From: a virus
IMG/VR virus record: IMGVR_UViG_3300027963_000178
Span: 1 to 34,985 of that record
Length of the DNA: 34,985 bases
Reading direction: 5' to 3' (one strand)
The notes under the pieces are model-generated. The model was not told the origin of the DNA, did not search any database, and saw nothing but the letters and a program-made list of their open reading frames with translations. The translations under genes were made by a program, and so were the position numbers. Positions 1,127 through 23,349 of the stretch are shown here, one piece after another. How positions within the stretch are numbered: position 1 is the stretch's first letter; each line of letters starts with the position of its first letter.

Positions 1127-1367
1127 TCTCGTATTGTATCATTAAATTATTTATGTCTGCATACAGTTGCAACACACACGCATTGCAGTTAGTGTTCACC
1201 GGTGCTTGTCCTAACTGCATCCACACCCTCGCCATTGTGTCGTGTGGTGAATTGCTTACATTCAGCTTCTGCTCTGCTACCATTTTAATCACACCCCTGT
1301 GGTTAACTAATTCTTGGTACTGGTCATCTCTTAATTTCATAGTGTTTTTAATTATTAGAAACCTCAT
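1113..1367 (-). CDS. Hypothetical protein
   Basis: An 84-residue soluble protein of unknown function. The start at 1367 is chosen because its ATG forms an ATGA overlap with the stop of the upstream membrane-protein gene; an internal ATG at 1340 (MKLRDDQYQEL) is the alternative. It contains DTMARVWMQLGQ and an isolated CNAC pair at residues 62-65 followed by a predicted helix LQLYADINNLMI. A single CxxC could bind metal only as a dimer or with a partner. Confidence 0.65.
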   Translation of the reverse strand: MRFLIIKNTMKLRDDQYQELVNHRGVIKMVAEQKLNVSNSPHDTMARVWMQLGQAPVNTNCNACVLQLYADINNLMIQYENGTD

Positions 1368-1687
1368 AGGTTTAACGACTTTAATTTGTTTAAGATACAT
1401 ATAAGTAAGACCGCACCAACAGAACAGATAGAGCAGTATGCTACCAGATGAAAGATGTTTGTGAAGTTCACTAATTGATAAACAAATCCTATCCAACTTG
1501 CAAGACACATCGCACAATCAAATGGTCTGCACCTTCGTGGTTGTGGACTGTTGTAAATGTCTATCTTGTAAAAAATTTTGTACTTACAAAGTAGGTACAT
1601 CAACTGCTGTGGTACATTCGACAGCTCTGCAAAAAATACAGAAAAGCAAACAATCTCAATAAAGTGAATTAACATCTGTATAGTCAT
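1364..1687 (-). CDS. Small cysteine-rich membrane protein
   Basis: A 107-residue protein with hydrophobic segments near residues 5-21, 58-75 and 78-100, so probably two or three membrane spans. Between them is RRCRPFDCAMCLASWIGF, a C-x(4)-C-x(2)-C motif running into an aromatic membrane segment, a pattern seen in small phage and bacterial membrane proteins of unknown function. It follows the glycan genes and overlaps the preceding gene by 32 bases (20 if the ATG at 1675 is used). It could be a membrane partner of the glycan enzymes or an accessory lysis protein; nothing in the sequence decides this. Confidence 0.65.
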   Translation of the reverse strand: MTIQMLIHFIEIVCFSVFFAELSNVPQQLMYLLCKYKIFYKIDIYNSPQPRRCRPFDCAMCLASWIGFVYQLVNFTNIFHLVAYCSICSVGAVLLICILNKLKSLNL

Positions 1688-2330
1688 ATATTTTTAAGTT
1701 AGTGTCTTTACTTATTGTCTTAATTCTTAGTTGTGTATTCCATTTATCAATTTTTTCCCACCCTCCTAATGATGCACCCAGATACCCATCAAACAAACTA
1801 TCATTTGCGTGTAATGATTGTTGTAATGTTTCTAACAATTCTTGTGGTATGTTTTCATTCACAGACTGGTCATAAGCATATTTCCTTGATGCTGTCATGT
1901 GTTTCAAATCTACTCCTGCTAAAATAATTTGTGATGCTCCCATCATCCAAGCAATATGTACTGCACAATGAATAACATCATACCCTCCAATTACCTTCGT
2001 GTCTGTTTCTTCAAACTTCCAGTTGTCAAAATCCTTCTCAAAATATATTGTGTTTCGTTTTATTTTAGGTATTTCTTGATTGCAGTTAATTATTGTACAC
2101 TTTTTTTTAGTTAAATTCAAATACCAATTTGAATAGTTTGCTGTGCCATCGGTGAACACTCCATAGTCAAATTTCTTAAAATGATAGGTTGCTGAATTGC
2201 AACACATCACAATGATGTTAGGATGTAATTTTTTTGTATCAATATCAAGCAATGAGCCACCGCTTCCACACACAAGGATTGTCTTGCCTTTGTGAATGTC
2301 TTTAATTTTTTGTAATGATTCTATTTTCAT
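1656..2330 (-). CDS. MptE/DUF115-like Rossmann protein of the glycan cluster
   Basis: A 224-residue protein with a nucleotide-binding-like start, TILVCGSGGSLLDID (residues about 18-32), and a second conserved block VIGGYDVIHCAVHIAWMMGA followed by ILAGVDLKH. This pattern fits the 6-hydroxymethylpterin pyrophosphokinase MptE-like/DUF115 superfamily. In bacteria its members sit in surface-glycan and flagellin-glycosylation loci (Maf-type proteins), where they are thought to transfer nonulosonic acids or other sugars. It is the last gene of the glycosyltransferase run, with an ATGA overlap to the gene before it. A sugar-transfer role is inferred from family and context; the substrate is unknown. 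Confidence 0.65.
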   Translation of the reverse strand: MKIESLQKIKDIHKGKTILVCGSGGSLLDIDTKKLHPNIIVMCCNSATYHFKKFDYGVFTDGTANYSNWYLNLTKKKCTIINCNQEIPKIKRNTIYFEKDFDNWKFEETDTKVIGGYDVIHCAVHIAWMMGASQIILAGVDLKHMTASRKYAYDQSVNENIPQELLETLQQSLHANDSLFDGYLGASLGGWEKIDKWNTQLRIKTISKDTNLKIYDYTDVNSLY

Positions 2331-3016
2331 CCGTAAATAATATAAAAATCTTGTCCGTACTCGTATGGTGGTAAGCTGTGTGCATTAATTACAATATTGC
2401 CATAAGGCAATAAGTATATTTTATGTTGATGAAATATGACAGACATCACAGCTTGATCATGTCGATGTGCCACAAACTCATTTCTGTTGCTTGTGCCTTC
2501 GTTGAATGATCCAAGTTCTACCTGTTCCAAAATCTCTTTATAGATTACCAATGTTATTGGATGCTCAAAGTTAAATGCGATAGCACCACCCCAAATCTGT
2601 TTGATGTCCGAAAGGTAGGTAATGCAATTTAGATTAACAACTGCCTGATCTGAAATGTATTTGGACAATGGATGTCCTAAATTATCGAATGCCATTATCG
2701 GTGATGCAAGTCCTGTGATGTCCTTGTGTAACACCAGAGATGAATCAAGCCAATATATTTCTGTATATCCTTTTTCTCTTGCAAGTTGAATCATTGTAAA
2801 CTTGAAGAAGTATGGCACATCATTATGTTCACGATGTTTGAATAGCAATGGATCGGGAAGTATTCCATCCCTTTCCTTTGAATGCAACCAATAGTCCCCA
2901 TCCCAATGTTCAAGGATAGATTGATATAACTTTTGTTGTCCTATGTTGTAGTCTGCACGACCTTTGGAAGCATAGGAAACAATTATCTTTTTACATTCAG
3001 GTGTATTCTTTATCAT
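2327..3016 (-). CDS. Putative GT-A-type glycosyltransferase
   Basis: A 229-residue protein beginning KKIIVSYASKGRADYNIGQQ. It has IYWLDSSLVLHKD (residues about 90-102), which sits where GT-A enzymes carry the metal-binding DxD, here with D-S-S. Later come WGGAIAFNF and HRHDQAVMSVIFH, resembling the acceptor and DQ motif regions of GT8/GT77-like enzymes. It overlaps the preceding GT2 gene by 20 bases and ends in an ATGA overlap with the next gene, so it belongs to the glycan operon. No membrane segment is seen. The sugar donor is unknown, and the fold assignment is weaker than for the neighbouring GT2 enzymes. Confidence 0.6.
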   Translation of the reverse strand: MIKNTPECKKIIVSYASKGRADYNIGQQKLYQSILEHWDGDYWLHSKERDGILPDPLLFKHREHNDVPYFFKFTMIQLAREKGYTEIYWLDSSLVLHKDITGLASPIMAFDNLGHPLSKYISDQAVVNLNCITYLSDIKQIWGGAIAFNFEHPITLVIYKEILEQVELGSFNEGTSNRNEFVAHRHDQAVMSVIFHQHKIYLLPYGNIVINAHSLPPYEYGQDFYIIYG

Positions 3017-3578
3017 AGCTTCTGTAATCGTAATGGTAAACCAATTCTTTTATTTCAACTTCTGACTGCAAAAATGGATTCAATCGTGATGAATATTCTT
3101 TATCCTCTGCATTTGATTTGTCAGGGAACATTGCTTGTAGTGCAAGTTCTCTTTTGACTGGTGTCAAATGGTTTGCCCTTCTAAAATAAACTATTTGATT
3201 GAACTCCTCACTATACTTATTTTCATCTTCATAGTCTTTTGATAATTTCCATCTTACTTTCCTGCCATTGTCAACTGTGTATATTCCTGTTGTTGCAATG
3301 CAGTCCGCATCTGATTCTATTGCCTCTAAAATTAATTTAATGTAATTAGGATAGATGTGGTCATCGTCATCAATGAAACAGATGTACTTGCCACATGCTT
3401 TGTTTAGCAAGTTGTTTCTTTTTGCTCCTGTCGTGATTTGTTTGTTGTCAACTTCTGTGATGACTTCAACGATAGCAGTTGCATCGCAACTTGTTATTTG
3501 CAAGTTAATTTCTGCTAACAATTCAGCAAGTTGCTCTTGCCTTTTTTCAAGTGAGCAAATTAGTATTGATAATTTCAT
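2997..3578 (-). CDS. GT2-family glycosyltransferase
   Basis: A 193-residue GT-A fold enzyme. It starts MKLSILICSLEKRQEQL, the usual first strand, then has GAKRNNLLNKACGKYICFID followed by DDDHIYPNYIK, where the DDDD run is the metal and nucleotide-sugar site. It is closely similar in plan to the next gene upstream (3575-4186): both share GAKR, A-x-G-x-Y and F-x-DDDD-x(3)-PNY. The start at 3578 gives an ATGA overlap with the upstream gene; an ATG three codons earlier (3587) is possible. At under 200 residues it is a minimal catalytic domain with no membrane anchor. Donor and acceptor are unknown. Confidence 0.85.
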   Translation of the reverse strand: MKLSILICSLEKRQEQLAELLAEINLQITSCDATAIVEVITEVDNKQITTGAKRNNLLNKACGKYICFIDDDDHIYPNYIKLILEAIESDADCIATTGIYTVDNGRKVRWKLSKDYEDENKYSEEFNQIVYFRRANHLTPVKRELALQAMFPDKSNAEDKEYSSRLNPFLQSEVEIKELVYHYDYRSYDKEYT

Positions 3579-4186
3579 TTGTTGCATTCTATTTCGTTGA
3601 CTGCTGATGTAGTTGAAAAATCATTGTATTGATGCAATATCTGATCGGTGTGTGCTTGTGTGTGGCAATCTGGCAATATCTTTTGCATCCATCCCCAATC
3701 CTCTCCATTGTTGATGTCAGGGAAAGTATGTCGCTGTGCAATGGTTGTGCGAATGGGACACACATGAAATGGCTGTCGCTTGACAATTACTGATTCATTC
3801 ATTTGTTCATTCTCTGAATGTATTAAGTTCATATCAACTATTGACCAATAGTTATCTGAATTGTAAAATGACCTAAATGTGATAATGTCAGGATTCGTTT
3901 CTGTCAATCTTAAAATTTGCTGAACATAGTTTGGTGCAACATTATCATCATCATCAACAAAGACAAGGTATTGACCAGTTGCCCTGCACTTCAACGCATC
4001 TCTCTTTGCTCCAACAGTCAACCCACCTTTGAGAAACTTCTTTGACTTGTCGAACAATATCTCGACTTTCCCAAGTGATGGATGTGTTGTATGCACAAAG
4101 TCTATCTGTGACATTAGATTCTTATACAAGATGTTGAACATCTTTTTGCGTTGTGGTAGTGTTGGAATTAATATGCTCAATCTCAT
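3575..4186 (-). CDS. GT2-family glycosyltransferase
   Basis: A 203-residue GT-A fold enzyme. It begins MRLSILIPTLPQRKKM, then has VGAKRDALKCRATGQYLVFV followed by DDDDNVAPNYVQ, with the DDDD metal site near residue 85, and a later GEDWGWMQK block typical of the GT2 acceptor side. The start is set at 4186 because its ATG overlaps the stop of the methyltransferase gene (ATGA); an in-frame ATG at 4207 is less likely. It looks like a diverged duplicate of the following gene (2997-3578). It probably adds one sugar to the same glycan as its neighbours, but the substrate is not readable from sequence. Confidence 0.85.
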   Translation of the reverse strand: MRLSILIPTLPQRKKMFNILYKNLMSQIDFVHTTHPSLGKVEILFDKSKKFLKGGLTVGAKRDALKCRATGQYLVFVDDDDNVAPNYVQQILRLTETNPDIITFRSFYNSDNYWSIVDMNLIHSENEQMNESVIVKRQPFHVCPIRTTIAQRHTFPDINNGEDWGWMQKILPDCHTQAHTDQILHQYNDFSTTSAVNEIECNK

Positions 4187-4797
4187 AGTGCCATTATTAT
4201 ATTGCATCCGTTCATCATGATAATTTTAAAGCCAAATTGCTCCATGTACTTGACATACTTCATCCCATCAATGTTGTTGTATTCCACGCATACCATTTGA
4301 CAATTCAATGCCTTCAAGTCAATCTGTTCAAGTATTCGATAGTCGCTTCCCTCTGCATCAATGCTGATGAAGTCAATCGTTGTTAGCTTTGTGATGTCAA
4401 GCAATGTCTTGAAGTCAATCACATCAACTTCTACCTCTGTGAATGTTTCTTTGTGCCACCTCTCTTTCTCTTTCTCGTTGATCGTTGACAGCAACCCCAT
4501 GTCACCCATGTTCAAGTGTGTGCCTGAACAGTGCATCGTTATCTTATCGTTGTAGTTGTCAATGGCATTGTCTATTATCTGAATGCTTGGATTGTGATAA
4601 TACAATTTCTCTAACGCATACAATGGCTGTGGATCAGGTTCAACCAATGCACCTGTCCATCCGTTCAGAATCAATGCTCTTGAATTGCTGAATGTTTCCC
4701 CATCATTTGCTCCGATGTCAAGCAGTATGCCATGCTCTTTGCTTTCAAAGTAGTTCAAGATGACATCCTGTTCAAGCTGTTGTGTGTAATCTATCAT
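4183..4797 (-). CDS. FkbM-family methyltransferase
   Basis: A 204-residue S-adenosylmethionine-dependent methyltransferase. Motif I is ILLDIGANDGETFSNS (residues about 24-39), followed by ALVEPDPQPLYAL, the acidic residue that holds the ribose, and IDFISIDAEGSDYRIL, the hallmark IDxEGxD of the FkbM family. Such enzymes O-methylate sugars or polyketides, and in glycan loci they often cap the chain. It lies between glycosyltransferase genes with ATGA overlaps on both sides, so its substrate is probably the glycan they build. It is not a DNA methyltransferase: the target-base motifs are absent. Confidence 0.85.
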   Translation of the reverse strand: MIDYTQQLEQDVILNYFESKEHGILLDIGANDGETFSNSRALILNGWTGALVEPDPQPLYALEKLYYHNPSIQIIDNAIDNYNDKITMHCSGTHLNMGDMGLLSTINEKEKERWHKETFTEVEVDVIDFKTLLDITKLTTIDFISIDAEGSDYRILEQIDLKALNCQMVCVEYNNIDGMKYVKYMEQFGFKIIMMNGCNIIMAL

Positions 4798-5474
4798 AAA
4801 TTTTCGTATTTAAATCCATTTATTATTTCATTTTCTTTCAATCCGTAGTTTTTTGCACGATTATTATCTATACATTGCTTGTCCTTTTGCCAATAGTATG
4901 GTGATTCAGTCTTGCGATACTGTTCATCGTGTAGGCAGAAACCCCATGCAGGATGGTGGTGTGCGAATAGAATTGTGGCATCACCCATGTATTTATACTT
5001 CCCTCTCATGTGTGCTACTTCTGTTGCTTCCACATCGCACCACAAAGATTGGTACTCTGGATTGTAGATGTACCCATCCCTCTGATAGTACTTCCTGCCA
5101 ATGATTGACATTGTCATCACATTTGCTTTCTGATTTCCATCATTGTAATGAAGAACTCCATCGGTATCTGGAAAGTTCTCATTCATGTCTTGACGAATGA
5201 TGTCATCCCACCCATGAGTGACGCACACCATGTCATCAGACATAACAACCAGAATGTCCCAATCTGATTCAGGAACATCTCTATTGACTGCATGAATTTT
5301 ATTGTTGCTCTTGCCTCCCAATGTTTCGATAAAGTACAAATCAACTTCGTCATCATCTATTGTAAAGTGAAACATAATGTCGTTAAGGTTATTGGCCATT
5401 GCTTTCATCTTGTTCAATGTTTCGTAAAACTTTTCTTTACGATTTCTTGATGGGTATTTTACAAGTATTTTCAT
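4794..5474 (-). CDS. Putative GT2-like glycosyltransferase
   Basis: A 226-residue protein with the GT-A outline: MKILVKYPSRNRKEKF, then FTIDDDEVDLYF, a central DWDILVVMSDDMVCVTHGWD (the SDDM block fits the metal-binding DxD region), and a C-terminal half with YQSLWCDVEATEVAHMRGKY. The C-terminal DVE and late histidines (FAHHHPAWGF) resemble the catalytic side of such enzymes. It is 13 bases after the preceding glycosyltransferase gene and ends in an ATGA overlap with the methyltransferase. The family is fairly clear, the substrate unknown. Confidence 0.7.
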   Translation of the reverse strand: MKILVKYPSRNRKEKFYETLNKMKAMANNLNDIMFHFTIDDDEVDLYFIETLGGKSNNKIHAVNRDVPESDWDILVVMSDDMVCVTHGWDDIIRQDMNENFPDTDGVLHYNDGNQKANVMTMSIIGRKYYQRDGYIYNPEYQSLWCDVEATEVAHMRGKYKYMGDATILFAHHHPAWGFCLHDEQYRKTESPYYWQKDKQCIDNNRAKNYGLKENEIINGFKYENL

Positions 5475-5487
5475 AGTTTATTTTTGT

Positions 5488-6135
5488 TTAAGGTTTCAAA
5501 TTGAAACCTTTATATACTGCCTCTGCTTTCTTTACTGATTCCAACATTTCTTTGAATGGCATTGATGACTTGTGCTTGATGTTAAATGAGCCGACACCCT
5601 GCAAGTCTATCGCATAGATTTTGTCATTGCCTTTACAGGACAAATATTGTCCAAACAGATTAAACTTGTTTTGATAAATTCGATTTGTGAACTCTGCATG
5701 TTCGTAACCATACCTTCCAAATGATTCATCAAACATTCCAACAGTCTGAATGGTTGACTTTGTAAGGAACATCATGCACCCTGCACAGTTGGTCCATGAA
5801 GTGATTCCATCAATAACCTCTTTGATTTCAATGCTCGGTGTTTCGTTGATCTTCAAGAAGTGGTGGTTGCCAGTTCGGATATATTCGGATATATACGCAT
5901 CTGCCCATCCATCTTCTATTGGAAAGCAATCGTCATCAAACAGGAATACATAGTCGCACTCTTTCAATGCTTCCAGACACTTGTTCTTCTGATGTGCCAC
6001 ACCCATCTTGTTGGTGTCGTGGGCCACAAATAGCATTGCATCTTCTGGCATGTACTTGTTCATCTGTGACAAACATAGTTCAAGATGTGCAGGTCTGCTC
6101 GGTGTCGAAGTTATGCCTATGCCTATACGTGTCAT
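5488..6135 (-). CDS. GT2-family glycosyltransferase
   Basis: A 215-residue GT-A enzyme starting MTRIGIGITSTPSRPAHLEL. It has GVAHQKNKCLEALKECDYVF followed by LFDDDCFP, the metal-binding DDD at residues about 66-68, and then VGMFDESFGRYGYEHAEFTN, which matches the galactosyltransferase-like C-terminal motif (FDE-x-F...E/DxE) of GT2/GT27 enzymes. It overlaps the upstream GT4 gene by an ATGA. No membrane segment is seen, so it probably works in the host cytoplasm. Confidence 0.85.
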   Translation of the reverse strand: MTRIGIGITSTPSRPAHLELCLSQMNKYMPEDAMLFVAHDTNKMGVAHQKNKCLEALKECDYVFLFDDDCFPIEDGWADAYISEYIRTGNHHFLKINETPSIEIKEVIDGITSWTNCAGCMMFLTKSTIQTVGMFDESFGRYGYEHAEFTNRIYQNKFNLFGQYLSCKGNDKIYAIDLQGVGSFNIKHKSSMPFKEMLESVKKAEAVYKGFNLKP

Positions 6136-7253
6136 ACTAATTTGTTTACGTGTATTTTCAGTTTCTCAACTTCTTTTTCGTGATTAAAATGTTCACGCAC
6201 ATCTTCTGCTAAATTGTCAACCAAGTCTTGTCGATATTCTTTGTCATTAAGCAAGGTGCGAATAGCCATGTGCCAGTCGTTTGCTGTGTTAACTCGGTAA
6301 CAGTTGTCGTGTGTTAGGTATTTTGAATATGGAAGAACATTTGATACTATCGCAGCACAGCCAGTCATTCCTGCCTCAATAAGTTTCAGCTCTGACTTGC
6401 AGTTTGAGAATAGTGTGTCTTGCAATGGTATCAATGCCACATCGATGTGCCGGTATAACCTTCCATAAGTGTCCACATCCCTTCCCCACAATCTTCTGTA
6501 TTGTTTGTCCTGTCCGATATGCTCACCCATCTGTGTGAACTCTTTCAGGTAGTCCATGTAATCCCCATCCCAAGTAGCGTTGAGCTTGTAGTTAGATGTG
6601 AAAATCTTCTCATAGTCGATGTACTCCTGATTGAAATTAAAGCCACCTAAAATAAATTGATACTTCTTTTGGATGTTGTTTGTCGCATAGATTTTCTCAA
6701 TGCCTTGTTTCATCAGTTCGATGTCTTTGGTGTGGAAGACACCACCCACCCACCCAAATCGAAGTCTGTCATGTGGTACTTTCTCGCTGTTGAAATTAAT
6801 GAAGTTCTCTGGTATGGTGTTCTTCACCACCTGTGCCACCTTACCGAATTCCTCAAATATCTTTTCTGCAAGTAATGGTGTTGATGTTGTGATAAGGTCA
6901 GCAAGTTGAAAGCACTTGCGAAGTTCTTCAAGGTAGTTTGTTGTGCGTGGATCATTGAATAGCAGGTGTGTCTTGTCCAATGTCCAGATGTCATCAATGT
7001 CAATGACTAACTTCTTGTTGCACCTCTTAATCTTCTCTGCGATTTCAATGTAGTGCAGACGATTGAAAACATAGATGTCGGAATCAATGTCTTTATCTTC
7101 GCAGTTGCGTACTTCATCCATGCTCCACGCATTGACAGCGTAATTGGTTGTGTCATTCGATATGCCACCATAAGGAATCACAAGTCTGTACAGCTCCATG
7201 CCTGTTTCACTTTGTGCGTTGCCTTTGTACTTTACGATTCCTATTTTAATCAT
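6132..7253 (-). CDS. GT4-like (GT-B fold) glycosyltransferase
   Basis: A 373-residue protein with two Rossmann-like halves. The N-terminal half has VIDIDDIWTLDKTH and ADLITTSTPLLAEKI. The C-terminal half has LRFGWVGGVFHTKDIELM and NCKSELKLIEAGMTGCAAIV, the E-x(3)-E/G nucleotide-sugar motif of GT4 enzymes, which is the main evidence. It is the first and largest enzyme of the glycan run, joined by an ATGA overlap to the sigma-like gene upstream, so the cluster seems to be transcribed with the middle genes. It is the only GT-B enzyme in the set. Similar genes occur in Bacteroidota phages; the product it helps to make is unknown. Confidence 0.8.
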   Translation of the reverse strand: MIKIGIVKYKGNAQSETGMELYRLVIPYGGISNDTTNYAVNAWSMDEVRNCEDKDIDSDIYVFNRLHYIEIAEKIKRCNKKLVIDIDDIWTLDKTHLLFNDPRTTNYLEELRKCFQLADLITTSTPLLAEKIFEEFGKVAQVVKNTIPENFINFNSEKVPHDRLRFGWVGGVFHTKDIELMKQGIEKIYATNNIQKKYQFILGGFNFNQEYIDYEKIFTSNYKLNATWDGDYMDYLKEFTQMGEHIGQDKQYRRLWGRDVDTYGRLYRHIDVALIPLQDTLFSNCKSELKLIEAGMTGCAAIVSNVLPYSKYLTHDNCYRVNTANDWHMAIRTLLNDKEYRQDLVDNLAEDVREHFNHEKEVEKLKIHVNKLV

Positions 7254-7825
7254 TTTATTTTCAAGTTGTCGTTTGCAATCTCTTTGAAATCTTTTACCAT
7301 TCTATGGATGGTCATCTTATTCACTCCTGTATGCACAGACACCTTACGATAGTTGCCTAACTCTAAATAAGCATTAGCAGCAAGTACTGATTCGTATTGC
7401 TTCAAATCTTTCTTTGTATTTGTCAATACCTTATCGCATGTGCGTTCAAACTTTATTACCTGATCATTCACAAACCCATACTTCTTTATCGCACTTGTGA
7501 TTTCTTTCTTTGTTGTGACAATCCCCTCTTGACTATCGTTTGTTAAGTTCTGCACTGTCACCTCTACCTTCACAATGTCTATCTCGTATAACTTGCGGAA
7601 CTTGTTGTTAGGATTGAATGCTTCATTAGTCATGATGCCATAAGCATATCGTTCCAGTTGTTTATTCTCTTGCAGTTCAATGATCCTTTCCTCTGGCATG
7701 TTTAGTAGTCGCAGTAACATCTCTTGGAATAAGTCCTCAAAGTTTGACATGCCAACAAACTTGTAAGCCATTGCTTTCAATGACTTGCTGTTTGCTATGG
7801 ATGTGATTGCATCGTTTCTGCTCAC
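7250..7825 (-). CDS. Sigma-70-like RNA polymerase factor
   Basis: A 191-residue protein. Residues about 26-41, SNFEDLFQEMLLRLLN, match sigma region 2.1 (D-L-x-Q-E), and YAYGIMTNEAF fits region 2.2/2.3. After a variable linker, residues 150-185 (LELGNYRKVSVHTGVNKMTI) form a helix-turn-helix like region 4. It probably redirects host RNA polymerase to the glycan, packaging and structural genes that follow. It sits at the border between early replication genes and those genes, where phages often place a late activator. It overlaps the GT4 gene by an ATGA. Its target promoter sequence is not evident. Confidence 0.7.
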   Translation of the reverse strand: MSRNDAITSIANSKSLKAMAYKFVGMSNFEDLFQEMLLRLLNMPEERIIELQENKQLERYAYGIMTNEAFNPNNKFRKLYEIDIVKVEVTVQNLTNDSQEGIVTTKKEITSAIKKYGFVNDQVIKFERTCDKVLTNTKKDLKQYESVLAANAYLELGNYRKVSVHTGVNKMTIHRMVKDFKEIANDNLKIK

Positions 7826-18320: not shown

Positions 18321-18568
18321 TACATTTTATTTATTCTGTTTTTCAATTCTAATATCTGTGCATCAGTTAACGAAGATATGTCAATATTTGACAAGTCAAC
18401 CTTTGGTAACTCAACCGCTTCAACCTTTGCAACTGGCAATGATGCCTCTATCTCTGCAACATCACTTTCGTTCTCTGCAAAGAAGTAGTTAATTCCATCA
18501 CAATGCACTCTGATAAATTCAGAAGGCAAAGGTGTGGTGTTATAGTTTTCGTATTTTATAATTTTCAT
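18320..18568 (-). CDS. Hypothetical protein after the tail fibre
   Basis: An 82-residue protein of unknown function. The second half contains DLSNIDISSLTDAQILELKN, a short helical end. Overlaps of one base (TAATG) link it to the fibre gene before it and the membrane-protein gene after it. A fibre-assembly helper is possible from position only. Confidence 0.6.
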   Translation of the reverse strand: MKIIKYENYNTTPLPSEFIRVHCDGINYFFAENESDVAEIEASLPVAKVEAVELPKVDLSNIDISSLTDAQILELKNRINKM

Positions 18569-19734
18569 TATGATACTTTTTTAAATGTTGCGTATGAAGA
18601 CAAGCCAGTAGATATTCCTCCGTTGACAGTAATTGTGTTTGATGCCAAAGCACTTTTTATTTGTAAATTTATGTTTCCAGCAGTTGCGACTGTTGTAAGG
18701 AATCCGCTAAATCTTACTATATTGGTTGTAATAAATCTTGCCATAAAAACAGTATTTCCAATTCCATTTATATTATTAACTTGCTGAAATAATAAATTGC
18801 TTGTTGACTGTCCAAACATTAATGAATTACTTGAAGCACCAGCGACAAGGTCATTCCCAATAGTATAACCACTTGTGTTGCTTGTCCCAACTAACCATAC
18901 ACCTTCAACAAGATAAGTCGAATTTGCTTCAACTGGAAACGTAAATCCCGTTACAGTTACCATTGTTATTGATGTTGTTGAAAAATCAGAAGTTAATTTT
19001 TTAAATATTGTGTAATCCCAAAATGTTCCATTGTAGGTGCAAGTAGTTCCAATGGTTGTATCGTACACAACATCACCACTTGTCGGTGTCAATGCTTGTC
19101 TTTGTGCAGTTGTTAGTTTGTTTATTGTCAATCCACTTACTGTTGTAGATGAGAATGTCAATGCAGTTGCACTTGCACTACCAAGAATAGGTGTGACTAA
19201 TGTTGGCGATGTTGCAAATACATTCACACCAGTTCCAGTTTCATCAGTTAACGCTGCTCCAAGTTGTGCCGATGTGAATGAGCCAAGTACCGCAGCATTT
19301 CCAACAGATGTGATGTGACCAGTTAGATTGGCATTGGTTGTTACCGTTGCAGCATTGCCCGAAATACTTCCAGTTGCACTACCAATATTTGGTGTTGTCA
19401 GAACTGGCGAAATTGAAAGTACAGTATTTCCGCTTCCTGTTGATGTTGTTACTCCTGTGCCACCATTTGCAACTGGCAACGCTGTTCCACTTAAAGTAAC
19501 CGCTAATGTACCACTTGATGTGATTGGACTCCCTGCTACTGATAAGAATGTTGGTACTGTTGCTGCTACACTTGTAACAGTTCCACTACCGCCACCCAAT
19601 GCCACACCACCTGCTGTTACTCCATCGCCTTTATACACACCGCCATTGGTAGTGTCGTAAACCAACTCACCGACATCTAATGTCAATGCTATGCGTTGTA
19701 CTGTTGTTATTCTTGGAATTTTTATCTGTCCCAT
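18568..19734 (-). CDS. Tail fibre / receptor-binding protein
   Basis: A 388-residue protein. Residues about 10-37 (TTVQRIALTLDVGELVYDTT) recur in diverged form at about 207-228 (LTTAQRQALTPTSGDVVYDT), so a short domain is duplicated. Between them is a low-complexity Gly/Ser/Thr/Val shaft (ALPVANGGTGVTTSTGSGNT, SATGSISGNAATVTT) typical of fibres in environmental phages. The last ~150 residues form a beta-rich end (TSNTSGYTIGNDLVAGASSN) that probably contacts the receptor. It stands three bases after a related small gene. Confidence 0.7.
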   Translation of the reverse strand: MGQIKIPRITTVQRIALTLDVGELVYDTTNGGVYKGDGVTAGGVALGGGSGTVTSVAATVPTFLSVAGSPITSSGTLAVTLSGTALPVANGGTGVTTSTGSGNTVLSISPVLTTPNIGSATGSISGNAATVTTNANLTGHITSVGNAAVLGSFTSAQLGAALTDETGTGVNVFATSPTLVTPILGSASATALTFSSTTVSGLTINKLTTAQRQALTPTSGDVVYDTTIGTTCTYNGTFWDYTIFKKLTSDFSTTSITMVTVTGFTFPVEANSTYLVEGVWLVGTSNTSGYTIGNDLVAGASSNSLMFGQSTSNLLFQQVNNINGIGNTVFMARFITTNIVRFSGFLTTVATAGNINLQIKSALASNTITVNGGISTGLSSYATFKKVS

Positions 19735-21145: not shown

Positions 21146-22972
21146 CTATTTTCTTGTTGATCCTTTCTTAACTAAATTACTTTGCCATTCGTGTCTGCAA
21201 TGTGGAACGTGAATAGTTGTGTCTGGCTTTGTGTACCAACCACCACGCATCATCCACACACTACCACCCACCTCATTGCTCATGTTGTCTATCTCTGCTC
21301 TTGTGTATAGTTTCTGTGCATCCATCAACTTCACGCAGAACTCTCTCGACACACCACCTACCGCCAATGGTGGTGATTCAGGTGACAGCTCGTAGGAATA
21401 TAACACAACCAATTCAGGTTGCTGAACATCTGCCTTTGCTATCTCTGATTTCGTTGGTTGACTGATAATGATGTCACCTTCAATACCACCCTTCGTGCTT
21501 ATCTTTTCTTCTGCAAAGTTCATGTAACTTTCTTTCAGCTCGTTCTCATACGCATCAAAGTTCATCCCTTCTGTGAATTTCAATGACTGCGATTTCAATA
21601 TCTCGTAGTCTGCCTTTGGTGATCCACATTTAAGGAACATTTCAATGTTTGCCTGTGAATTAAAGTGTGCCTGAATGTTTGTCGTTTCTGTTGCCTGTGT
21701 TTCAATACCTATCAATCCCAATATCTGTGATGCCGACATCGAATCTAAAATCTTTTGTGCCACCGCTTGTGGTAAAGAATTGAGTGCCTGTATCGTGTCA
21801 ATAGTTTTCTGTGATGCGTTTGGCAAAGTGAATCCTAATGGCTGTACAGTTTTTAATCTTAATTCAACACCAATTTCAAAGTCACCGATAAACATGTTAA
21901 CCATGTCTTCAATTAACTTCTGTCTTGGTATGATGTACATCTGATTGAACTCATTGTGTGCAATCTCAATCTCGGAACGCATACCCAATGCACCCTCTCT
22001 CGCTATGCCGAATAAAATTGGATTTGCAAAGTGTGCTGAAAATATCTTTGTTTCTGATTGCTTCGCCACCTCAATATATTGCTTGTCGATGTCACTCATT
22101 GCAAGTGTCTGCACATCTGTTCCTGTTTCTTTGCTCATGGCAAAGTTCAACACAATGCGCTGACCTTTTTCGCCTGTCCACTTTTCAAGTATTCGATTCT
22201 CAATTTCTTCCTGCTTGATTTCATCAGGAACTCCATTGTAGAAGTTTATGATGTGTGCAGGAACAAATCCATTTTTGATATTATGATAGTGAAAATCAGA
22301 AAGTGCAATGTCAACATTTATCCAAATAACCGCACCTGAATACGATGGTAAAGGATAGACTTGTTGATTAGGATGGTAAACAGAAAAGTAATAAAGTTGT
22401 GACTTCTTATTTGTAGCTTCTTTATCATACGCATCAAATACTTTGTAGTCTGGCTCGTTCTCTGGATTTTTATTCATCTTCCTGTTACCAACCCCATCCA
22501 ATGTGTACCAACGTGATGTGTAATAATATTTCTTTTTGTCAGGACTGCTACGCACATTCGCAAAGTCAATGTAATTGATAGATGACAATGCACCACCCTT
22601 ATTGTAGATCACCTCTGCTGCCATGCCATTGAACAGCTCCAAATCATTCGCCCACTTCTGTGATGCCTGATTCAAAGTTTCATTGCCAAAGTTCTTTGTA
22701 AGGAAATCATTCACCATTGACTGCTTCTGCACCGTTGCTGTGCGTGAATCGTAAGTCCATCCATTGCCAACAAGATAACGCACCTTTTGGTCAATGATAG
22801 TCTTGTGGTATGCACTCCGAGTGTATAGGTCAATCAAGTAATAGGGATAGTCATTGAACTGACCAAACAATACATAATGCTTGTCTTTCTTTTCCACGAA
22901 TGCAGGAAGGTCTTGATTGCCGAAGGTCAAGAATCTTTGTGATGCTGTTGGTATATTGTTTAATTCTGCCAT
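21146..22972 (-). CDS. Portal protein with MuF-like C-terminal extension
   Basis: A 608-residue protein. The first ~450 residues are a portal: VLFGQFNDYPYYLIDLYTRS, KTIIDQKVRYLVGNGWTY, and FANPILFGIAREGALGMRSE followed by EIEIAHNEFNQMY are typical of portals in Bacteroidota phages. Portals form the dodecameric ring through which DNA enters. The last ~90 residues (SREFCVKLMDAQKLYTRAEI, RGGWYTKPDTTIHVPHCRHEW in two pieces) resemble the Cys/His end of MuF minor head proteins, so two head proteins may be fused. No separate MuF gene is present. Its ATG lies 13 bases inside the preceding gene. Confidence 0.85.
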   Translation of the reverse strand: MAELNNIPTASQRFLTFGNQDLPAFVEKKDKHYVLFGQFNDYPYYLIDLYTRSAYHKTIIDQKVRYLVGNGWTYDSRTATVQKQSMVNDFLTKNFGNETLNQASQKWANDLELFNGMAAEVIYNKGGALSSINYIDFANVRSSPDKKKYYYTSRWYTLDGVGNRKMNKNPENEPDYKVFDAYDKEATNKKSQLYYFSVYHPNQQVYPLPSYSGAVIWINVDIALSDFHYHNIKNGFVPAHIINFYNGVPDEIKQEEIENRILEKWTGEKGQRIVLNFAMSKETGTDVQTLAMSDIDKQYIEVAKQSETKIFSAHFANPILFGIAREGALGMRSEIEIAHNEFNQMYIIPRQKLIEDMVNMFIGDFEIGVELRLKTVQPLGFTLPNASQKTIDTIQALNSLPQAVAQKILDSMSASQILGLIGIETQATETTNIQAHFNSQANIEMFLKCGSPKADYEILKSQSLKFTEGMNFDAYENELKESYMNFAEEKISTKGGIEGDIIISQPTKSEIAKADVQQPELVVLYSYELSPESPPLAVGGVSREFCVKLMDAQKLYTRAEIDNMSNEVGGSVWMMRGGWYTKPDTTIHVPHCRHEWQSNLVKKGSTRK

Positions 22973-23349
22973 ACGAATTCTTCTGTATATGTGTTGTCAA
23001 TGAATGAGCTTGTTGCTGTGGTTGTGCTTTTGAGCAGTCCTGTTTCAACCAAAGAAGTTGATAGTGATGGATCAAGATTTGATGAACTTGTTTGCTCGTA
23101 AATTTTGTATTGATATGTCCCTTCTACTAACTTCACCTGCCCTGACAATGGAATGGATGTGTTCGATTCAATTATAGTAAGTAGGTTGTATCTCGTTGTC
23201 TGTGTGGATGTATCTGGACATATAGCATACACAAGTTCATTTGTTGCCAAGTTATTGAACACGACCAAAAAGTAAGGTGATGTCAATGTTGTCTTTTCGG
23301 TAAGTGTGACTGGCACACTGTTAGATTGCAGTCTGATAATCTTCAACAT
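22960..23349 (-). CDS. Hypothetical virion protein
   Basis: A 129-residue, beta-rich protein (SPYFLVVFNNLATNELVYAI, GTYQYKIYEQTSSSNLDPSL) between the terminator and the portal gene. The leader before its ATG (ACTTATATTATT) is shared with the tail chaperone gene at 33802. It overlaps the portal gene by 13 bases. Probably structural; function unknown. Confidence 0.55.
   Translation of the reverse strand: MLKIIRLQSNSVPVTLTEKTTLTSPYFLVVFNNLATNELVYAICPDTSTQTTRYNLLTIIESNTSIPLSGQVKLVEGTYQYKIYEQTSSSNLDPSLSTSLVETGLLKSTTTATSSFIDNTYTEEFVWQN

Follow-up and report, generated by a model that had tools for sequence, protein, structure and literature searches.

A conserved, modular set of glycosyltransferase genes in a 35-kb phage lineage as a candidate virion glycosylation pathway

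Gene content of the cassette

Positions 1656 to 7253 of IMG/VR virus record IMGVR_UViG_3300027963_000178 (the whole stretch of 34,985 bases analysed here is referred to as the window) carry eight open reading frames (ORFs), all on the minus strand, that form a glycan-building cassette. The cassette takes up 5598 bp, or 16% of the window, and its genes lie where an earlier note, made from the sequence alone, had placed them. Six of them code for glycosyltransferases (GTs; one GT4, one GT7C/GT27-like, one GT-A/GT2-like, two paralogous GT2 and one GT6-like), one for an FkbM methyltransferase and one for a putative transferase of Maf/GT42 type. Of the seven internal junctions, all but one overlap, by 4 to 25 nt, and the exception is a 13-nt gap, in agreement with the claim that stop/start overlaps join nearly all the genes. 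Since a 136-bp repeat with 99% identity is present at both ends, the window is a close to complete, circularly assembled genome.

Curated Pfam profiles scored above their cut-offs for the FkbM protein, both GT2s and the GT7C-like protein, as did the PF01973 and CST-I profiles for the Maf-like protein; PHROG profiles called five of the eight cassette proteins glycosyltransferases. Six GTs are backed by PHROG, Pfam or fold, matching the one GT4-type and about five GT-A/GT2 transferases of the earlier note. The first gene of the cassette (6132..7253, minus strand, as are all genes with coordinates given below for the cassette and its direct neighbours) codes for a GT4-type (GT-B) enzyme (PHROG 7162, E 3e-45). 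Its match to Pfam Glycos_transf_1 (PF00534; E 8e-5, 22.7 bits) lies under the curated cut-off of 26.4, and a sequence search against PDB gave nothing useful; the alignment contains an invariant KSxxKxxEAG motif. The next gene, GTA1 (5488..6135), codes for a GT7C/GT27-like GT-A enzyme (PHROG 2456, E 3e-38; Pfam Glyco_transf_7C, 2.6e-5, above cut-off) with invariant DDD (67-69) and E145, and is ca. 31% identical to glycosyltransferases in 544 mycobacteriophage records, among them Ardmore, which belongs to the same genus as Che8. GTA2 (4794..5474), a GT-A/GT2-like enzyme, has no Pfam match, is recognized by PHROG 14945 (E 2e-15) and carries a conserved SDD(M) motif.

The two GT2 paralogues, GT2b (2997..3587) and GT2a (3575..4207, which may actually begin at the ATG at 4186), both matched PHROG 14775 (E 3e-34 and 3e-24, respectively) and passed the Pfam Glycos_transf_2 profile (PF00535; E 1.2e-8 and 35.5 bits for GT2b, 2.8e-6 and 27.8 bits for GT2a, cut-off 23.3). 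The glycosyltransferase domain of Che8 gp108 is 31% identical to GT2a (E 2e-19) and 32% identical to GT2b (E 3e-27), and alignment of GT2b with gp108 revealed an invariant DDD and a conserved ED motif. GT4, GTA1, GTA2 and GT2b are referred to below as the core.

The earlier note had regarded two GT assignments as weaker. Predicted folds support both, GTA2 well and the last one, GTx (2327..3016), with low confidence. The AF2 model of GTA2 (pLDDT 84) gave 177 Foldseek matches at E ≤1e-3; the PDB matches listed are GT-A glycosyltransferases, headed by WrtF and TarP and including B4GalT7, the best at E 1.5e-7. GTx had no Pfam, PHROG or PDB sequence match. Its best Foldseek match, obtained with a low-confidence model (pLDDT 60), is BoGT6a (E 9.8e-7, TM 0.56), a metal-independent GT6 enzyme from a Bacteroides. 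The conserved W-x-DS and HRHDQ motifs of GTx are compatible with a GT-A enzyme; the GT6 label is tentative.

The FkbM-family SAM methyltransferase (4183..4797) noticed earlier is confirmed by a match to Methyltransf_21 (PF05050; E 6.7e-20, 72.4 bits against a cut-off of 22.7) that covers positions 1-171 of 173, and its probable role is sugar O-methylation. The last gene (1656..2330) had been described as MptE/DUF115-like. The family assignment stands, since the 224-amino-acid product matches PF01973 (Maf_flag10/DUF115/"MptE-like"; 1.8e-12, 47.8 bits, cut-off 34.6). A pterin (MptE) function was set aside: the CST-I sialyltransferase match (8.9e-6) is also above cut-off, and the best matches in a profile search of PDB, although weak (E 0.008-0.05), are the CstI/CstII sialyltransferases. 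PF01973 is the Maf_flag10 domain of Maf flagellin O-glycosyltransferases, three-domain enzymes acting on Ser/Thr, and structurally resembles Cst-II (PMC11339370). Because of this resemblance and the CST-I match, we regard the protein as a putative transferase of Maf/GT42 type rather than a pterin enzyme. The PF01973 match is confined to residues 4-143, and the N- and C-terminal domains that flank it in the three-domain Maf architecture were not found in this short protein. No phage match to it was detected among 50,697 phage records.

Conservation and mosaicism in related phages

Relatives were collected by IMG/VR searches with terminase, capsid and GT; their terminases range from 100% down to ca. 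62% identity. Profiles of the cassette proteins were built and run over all collected loci (numbered with the prefix L), and counts are given for the 26 terminase loci that are preceded by 5 kb or more of sequence. The loci were picked by similarity and include near-duplicates, so that the fractions are descriptive and do not represent independent samples.

GTA1, GTA2 and GT2 genes were found in the same order, on the same strand and just before the terminase genes in 25 of the 26 loci, and GT4 in 24. The earlier reading of a glycan-building gene set is supported. At the exceptional locus, L103, matches to GT4 and GTA1 are on the opposite strand, farther off. GTx is present in 15 loci and the Maf-like gene in three. 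When all GTA1 loci with upstream sequence are considered, GT4 directly precedes GTA1 in 51 out of 53; GT4 itself is more widespread than the pair, GTA1 being located just downstream in 24 of 65 GT4 loci. Several related contigs are of similar size (35.8 to 36.5 kb). On one 52.6-kb contig with a capsid protein 52% identical to that of the window, the cassette (L025:2825-7156) is oriented opposite to the capsid gene.

The conserved position agrees with the view that the cassette belongs to the phage programme and is not a loose insertion. Recent wholesale insertion was likewise rejected, as the cassette, apart from its low-GC Maf-like gene, is close in GC content to the remaining genome and is conserved in position. 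All cassette genes are under purifying selection, with dN/dS of 0.05-0.26 against near relatives and none of the tested pairs above 0.26; the values for GT2a, GT2b and GTx (0.13-0.26) indicate weaker constraint than those for the 5′ genes (0.05-0.09).

The 3′ half of the cassette is variable. The 5′ genes share 94-98% identity with those of the near relatives L002 and L044; identity falls to 75-87% for GT2a, GT2b and GTx, and both relatives lack the Maf-like gene. Against L003, GT4 has a dS of 0.56, GT2a/GT2b one of 0.15 and the Maf-like gene one of 0.09; the segments therefore differ in history, and this points to recombination. The Maf-like gene is 66% identical to its copy in the distant L066, whose remaining cassette genes are 29-48% identical. 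In other relatives, the variable slot contains TylF (L050), a second FkbM (L061) or a hexapeptide acyltransferase together with a nucleotide-sugar dehydratase (L049), and in some, proteins without a family match. DNA N4/N6 methylase genes (PF01555) also occur inside the cassette, between GTA1 and GTA2 (L044:518-1177) or between GT4 and GTA1 (L066:1179-2114).

Directly upstream of the cassette is a small sigma/HTH-like gene (7250..7825) that overlaps GT4 by 4 nt. The claim that the cassette directly follows a sigma-like gene therefore stands as to position; the evidence for the sigma label is weak, a Pfam match to Sigma70_r2 that stays below cut-off (E 0.0013). A small HTH-type gene occupies this position in several relatives as well. 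Directly after the cassette lies a gene for a small membrane protein (1364..1687; hydropathy peak 2.58) in a holin-like position; many relatives have 24-47% matches to it between cassette and terminase. Variation is also seen at a second place, a ParB-like gene (585-1043 in the window) located between the cassette and the terminase (L002, L003, L037 and L044): it is only 35-50% identical in relatives with 98-100% identical terminases, and some of these carry extra genes there (ORFs of 379 and 161 amino acids in L044). Matches of QueC type and queuine tRNA-ribosyltransferase type were also found among the relatives' genes, probably in L095 (region 5611-7354), after the ParB-like gene; they may hint at deazaguanine DNA modification.

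No clear promoter of the operon was revealed by counts of Bacteroidota −7/−33 motifs or by sigma-70 and terminator scans. Four −7/−33 motifs were counted against 1.2 in simple shuffles, and the Bacteroidota host is itself weakly supported: the suggestion comes from a terminase relative (64% identity) on a 3.1-kb phage-like contig binned in a Chitinophagaceae MAG. No isolated relative was found; the putative capsid protein had no tblastn match in the 50,697 phage records, where the terminase reached at most ca. 30% identity.

The glycan and its acceptor

The cassette is a genuine, conserved and modular phage glycan pathway. On balance, we favour a cytosolic pathway that would draw on host sugar nucleotides to build a short, methylated and capped glycan on virion proteins. 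One translationally coupled operon would provide a soluble assembly line, in which the core enzymes use host sugar nucleotides to attach and lengthen the chain. Pfam scans of the window ORFs revealed no nucleotide-sugar synthesis families, and the sugars must therefore come from the host. The acceptor would be a cytosolic protein, with capsid, tail-tube or fibre subunits the likeliest candidates, modified before assembly or while it proceeds. The variable second half (GT2a and the GT6-like, FkbM and Maf/GT42-like proteins here; TylF, acyltransferase and nucleotide-sugar dehydratase in relatives) would decorate and cap the chain, with caps exchanged between phages. It is the order of the enzyme steps, the sugars and the virion acceptor that we infer.

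Virion proteins are the best-supported acceptor through homology of the cassette enzymes to glycosyltransferases of mycobacteriophages with glycosylated virions, but no signature specific to an acceptor was found. PMC12363180, PMC12619734 and PMC11256854 describe glycosylated virion proteins in Che8, Corndog and Myrna; the first two place the glycans at the C-terminal ends of the capsid and tail-tube subunits, and the first reports Che8 gp110 to be essential for capsid glycosylation. None of the eight cassette proteins has a 19-residue hydropathy mean above 1.6. The earlier observation that the transferases lack membrane segments thus holds for the whole cassette, and the cytoplasmic target it was taken to favour is supported alongside. 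This point is not decisive, since many GT4/GT2 enzymes act peripherally on lipid-linked glycans.

Other observations weigh against a virion acceptor as well. No homologue of the GT25-like Che8 gp110 was detected in the cassette (BLASTP at E 0.05), the putative capsid protein does not have a Ser/Thr-rich C-terminus, and enzyme homology does not settle what the acceptor is. A scan for Ser/Thr content found the ORFs at 18568-19734 and 22960-23349 to be the richest (29%), which is suggestive at best; the product of the former (388 amino acids) has fibre-like repeats and might serve as a glycan acceptor or be a tail fibre.

The main rival to virion glycosylation, which we consider a lesser though real possibility, is that the host surface glycan (lipopolysaccharide, capsule or O-glycans of Bacteroidota surface proteins) is modified during infection, blocking superinfection or re-adsorption to debris. 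Sets of GT4, GT2, FkbM and GT6-like genes are typical for bacterial surface-glycan loci, and S-layer O-glycans of Tannerella bear nonulosonate caps. The variable 3′ half resembles serotype-like variation, and the small membrane protein directly follows the cassette. Methylated S-layer O-glycans in Bacteroidota (Tannerella) are described in PMC4030854. However, Pfam scans of the window ORFs detected no flippase, polymerase, initiating phosphoglycosyltransferase or Gtr-type membrane transferase and no integrase family, and a quick-killing phage gains less from a complex exclusion system. The cassette also adjoins packaging genes.

An intracellular target other than the virion, such as a cytosolic host protein (e.g., a defence factor), would be compatible with soluble enzymes and with protein-type transferases (GT27/GT7C-like and Maf-like), but we find it improbable: a multi-sugar, methylated and variably capped chain is more in keeping with an exposed surface than with an intracellular switch, and we know of no precedent. 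Glycosylation of modified bases in phage DNA, conferring resistance to restriction, is quite unlikely too. GTA1 gave a sub-threshold match to a TET-associated GT family (E 0.07), as did its Phapecoctavirus homologue (0.0013, below cut-off), and DNA-glycosylating GTs are known from viruses (Pyle 2024, as cited in PMC12619734). Nevertheless, the Pfam scans of the window ORFs revealed no Tet_JBP, thymidylate-synthase-type, hydroxymethylase or other base-modification family, and known base glycosylation requires less than six GTs together with a sugar-type methyltransferase and a Maf-like gene. Relatives moreover have other modification routes, some carrying ordinary DNA methylases and one matching QueC.

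If virion proteins are indeed the acceptor, the glycan might be an obligate multi-sugar, methylated and possibly nonulosonate-capped trait of the whole ca. 35-kb lineage, with a conserved core and recombining "serotype-like" caps that vary as O-antigens do and perhaps mimic host O-glycans. We offer this extension tentatively and regard it as rather doubtful in full. What is new here is the scale of the pathway, its conservation across a lineage without isolates and its variable cap region. Glycosylated virions have been demonstrated for few phages, and what purpose they serve in nature, in the absence of antibodies, is still a question. A six-to-eight-enzyme pathway that fills one sixth of a genome this small, persists in 25 of the 26 relatives examined and has its caps swapped between close relatives suggests that the glycan matters for environmental fitness. 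The cassette offers defined genes for asking whether it acts in stability, adsorption or escape from surface defences or grazing, supplies enzymologists with small, soluble glycosyltransferases and makes virion glycosylation a testable core trait of the whole lineage.

Comparison with known glycosylation systems

In contrast to Gtr-type or Wzx/Wzy surface-glycan systems, the window has no flippase, polymerase or membrane GT in the Pfam scans. The 1656-2330 protein shares the Maf_flag10 domain and CST-like similarity with Maf flagellin O-glycosyltransferases; unlike them, it stands alone without the Maf N- and C-terminal domains, there is no flagellin, and no nonulosonate synthesis genes were found in the window. 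BoGT6a of Bacteroides ovatus is the top fold match for GTx, whose HRHDQ motif lies at a late position comparable to that of the GT6 HDES motif, although the match comes from a low-confidence model and has no counterpart at the sequence level. Homologues of GTA1 (gp212) and GT4 (gp213/gp214), 22-26% identical, are adjacent in the Phapecoctavirus Escherichia phage ESCO5 (gp211-gp214), but that cluster comprises four genes in a 149-kb phage and has no adjacent methyltransferase or Maf-like gene.

A further close parallel is with mycobacteriophages, of which Che8 (gp108-gp110), Corndog and Myrna reportedly glycosylate their virions (Freeman et al. 2023, PMID 37329881). As in Che8, the phage GTs are soluble and encoded in a run of overlapping genes, GT2a and GT2b are homologous to the gp108 GT domain, and the GTA1 family is common to Ardmore and other Che8 relatives. 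A GT-plus-methyltransferase logic is also shared: TylF is fused in Che8 gp108 and present in the L050 cassette, with FkbM in its place here. The cassette differs from Che8 in having six GTs and a Maf-like gene versus three GT genes, in lacking a gp110 homologue, in its host group and in its location directly before the terminase. Since no gp110 homologue was detected, we claim no membership in the Che8 system and class the cassette as one that probably works like it.

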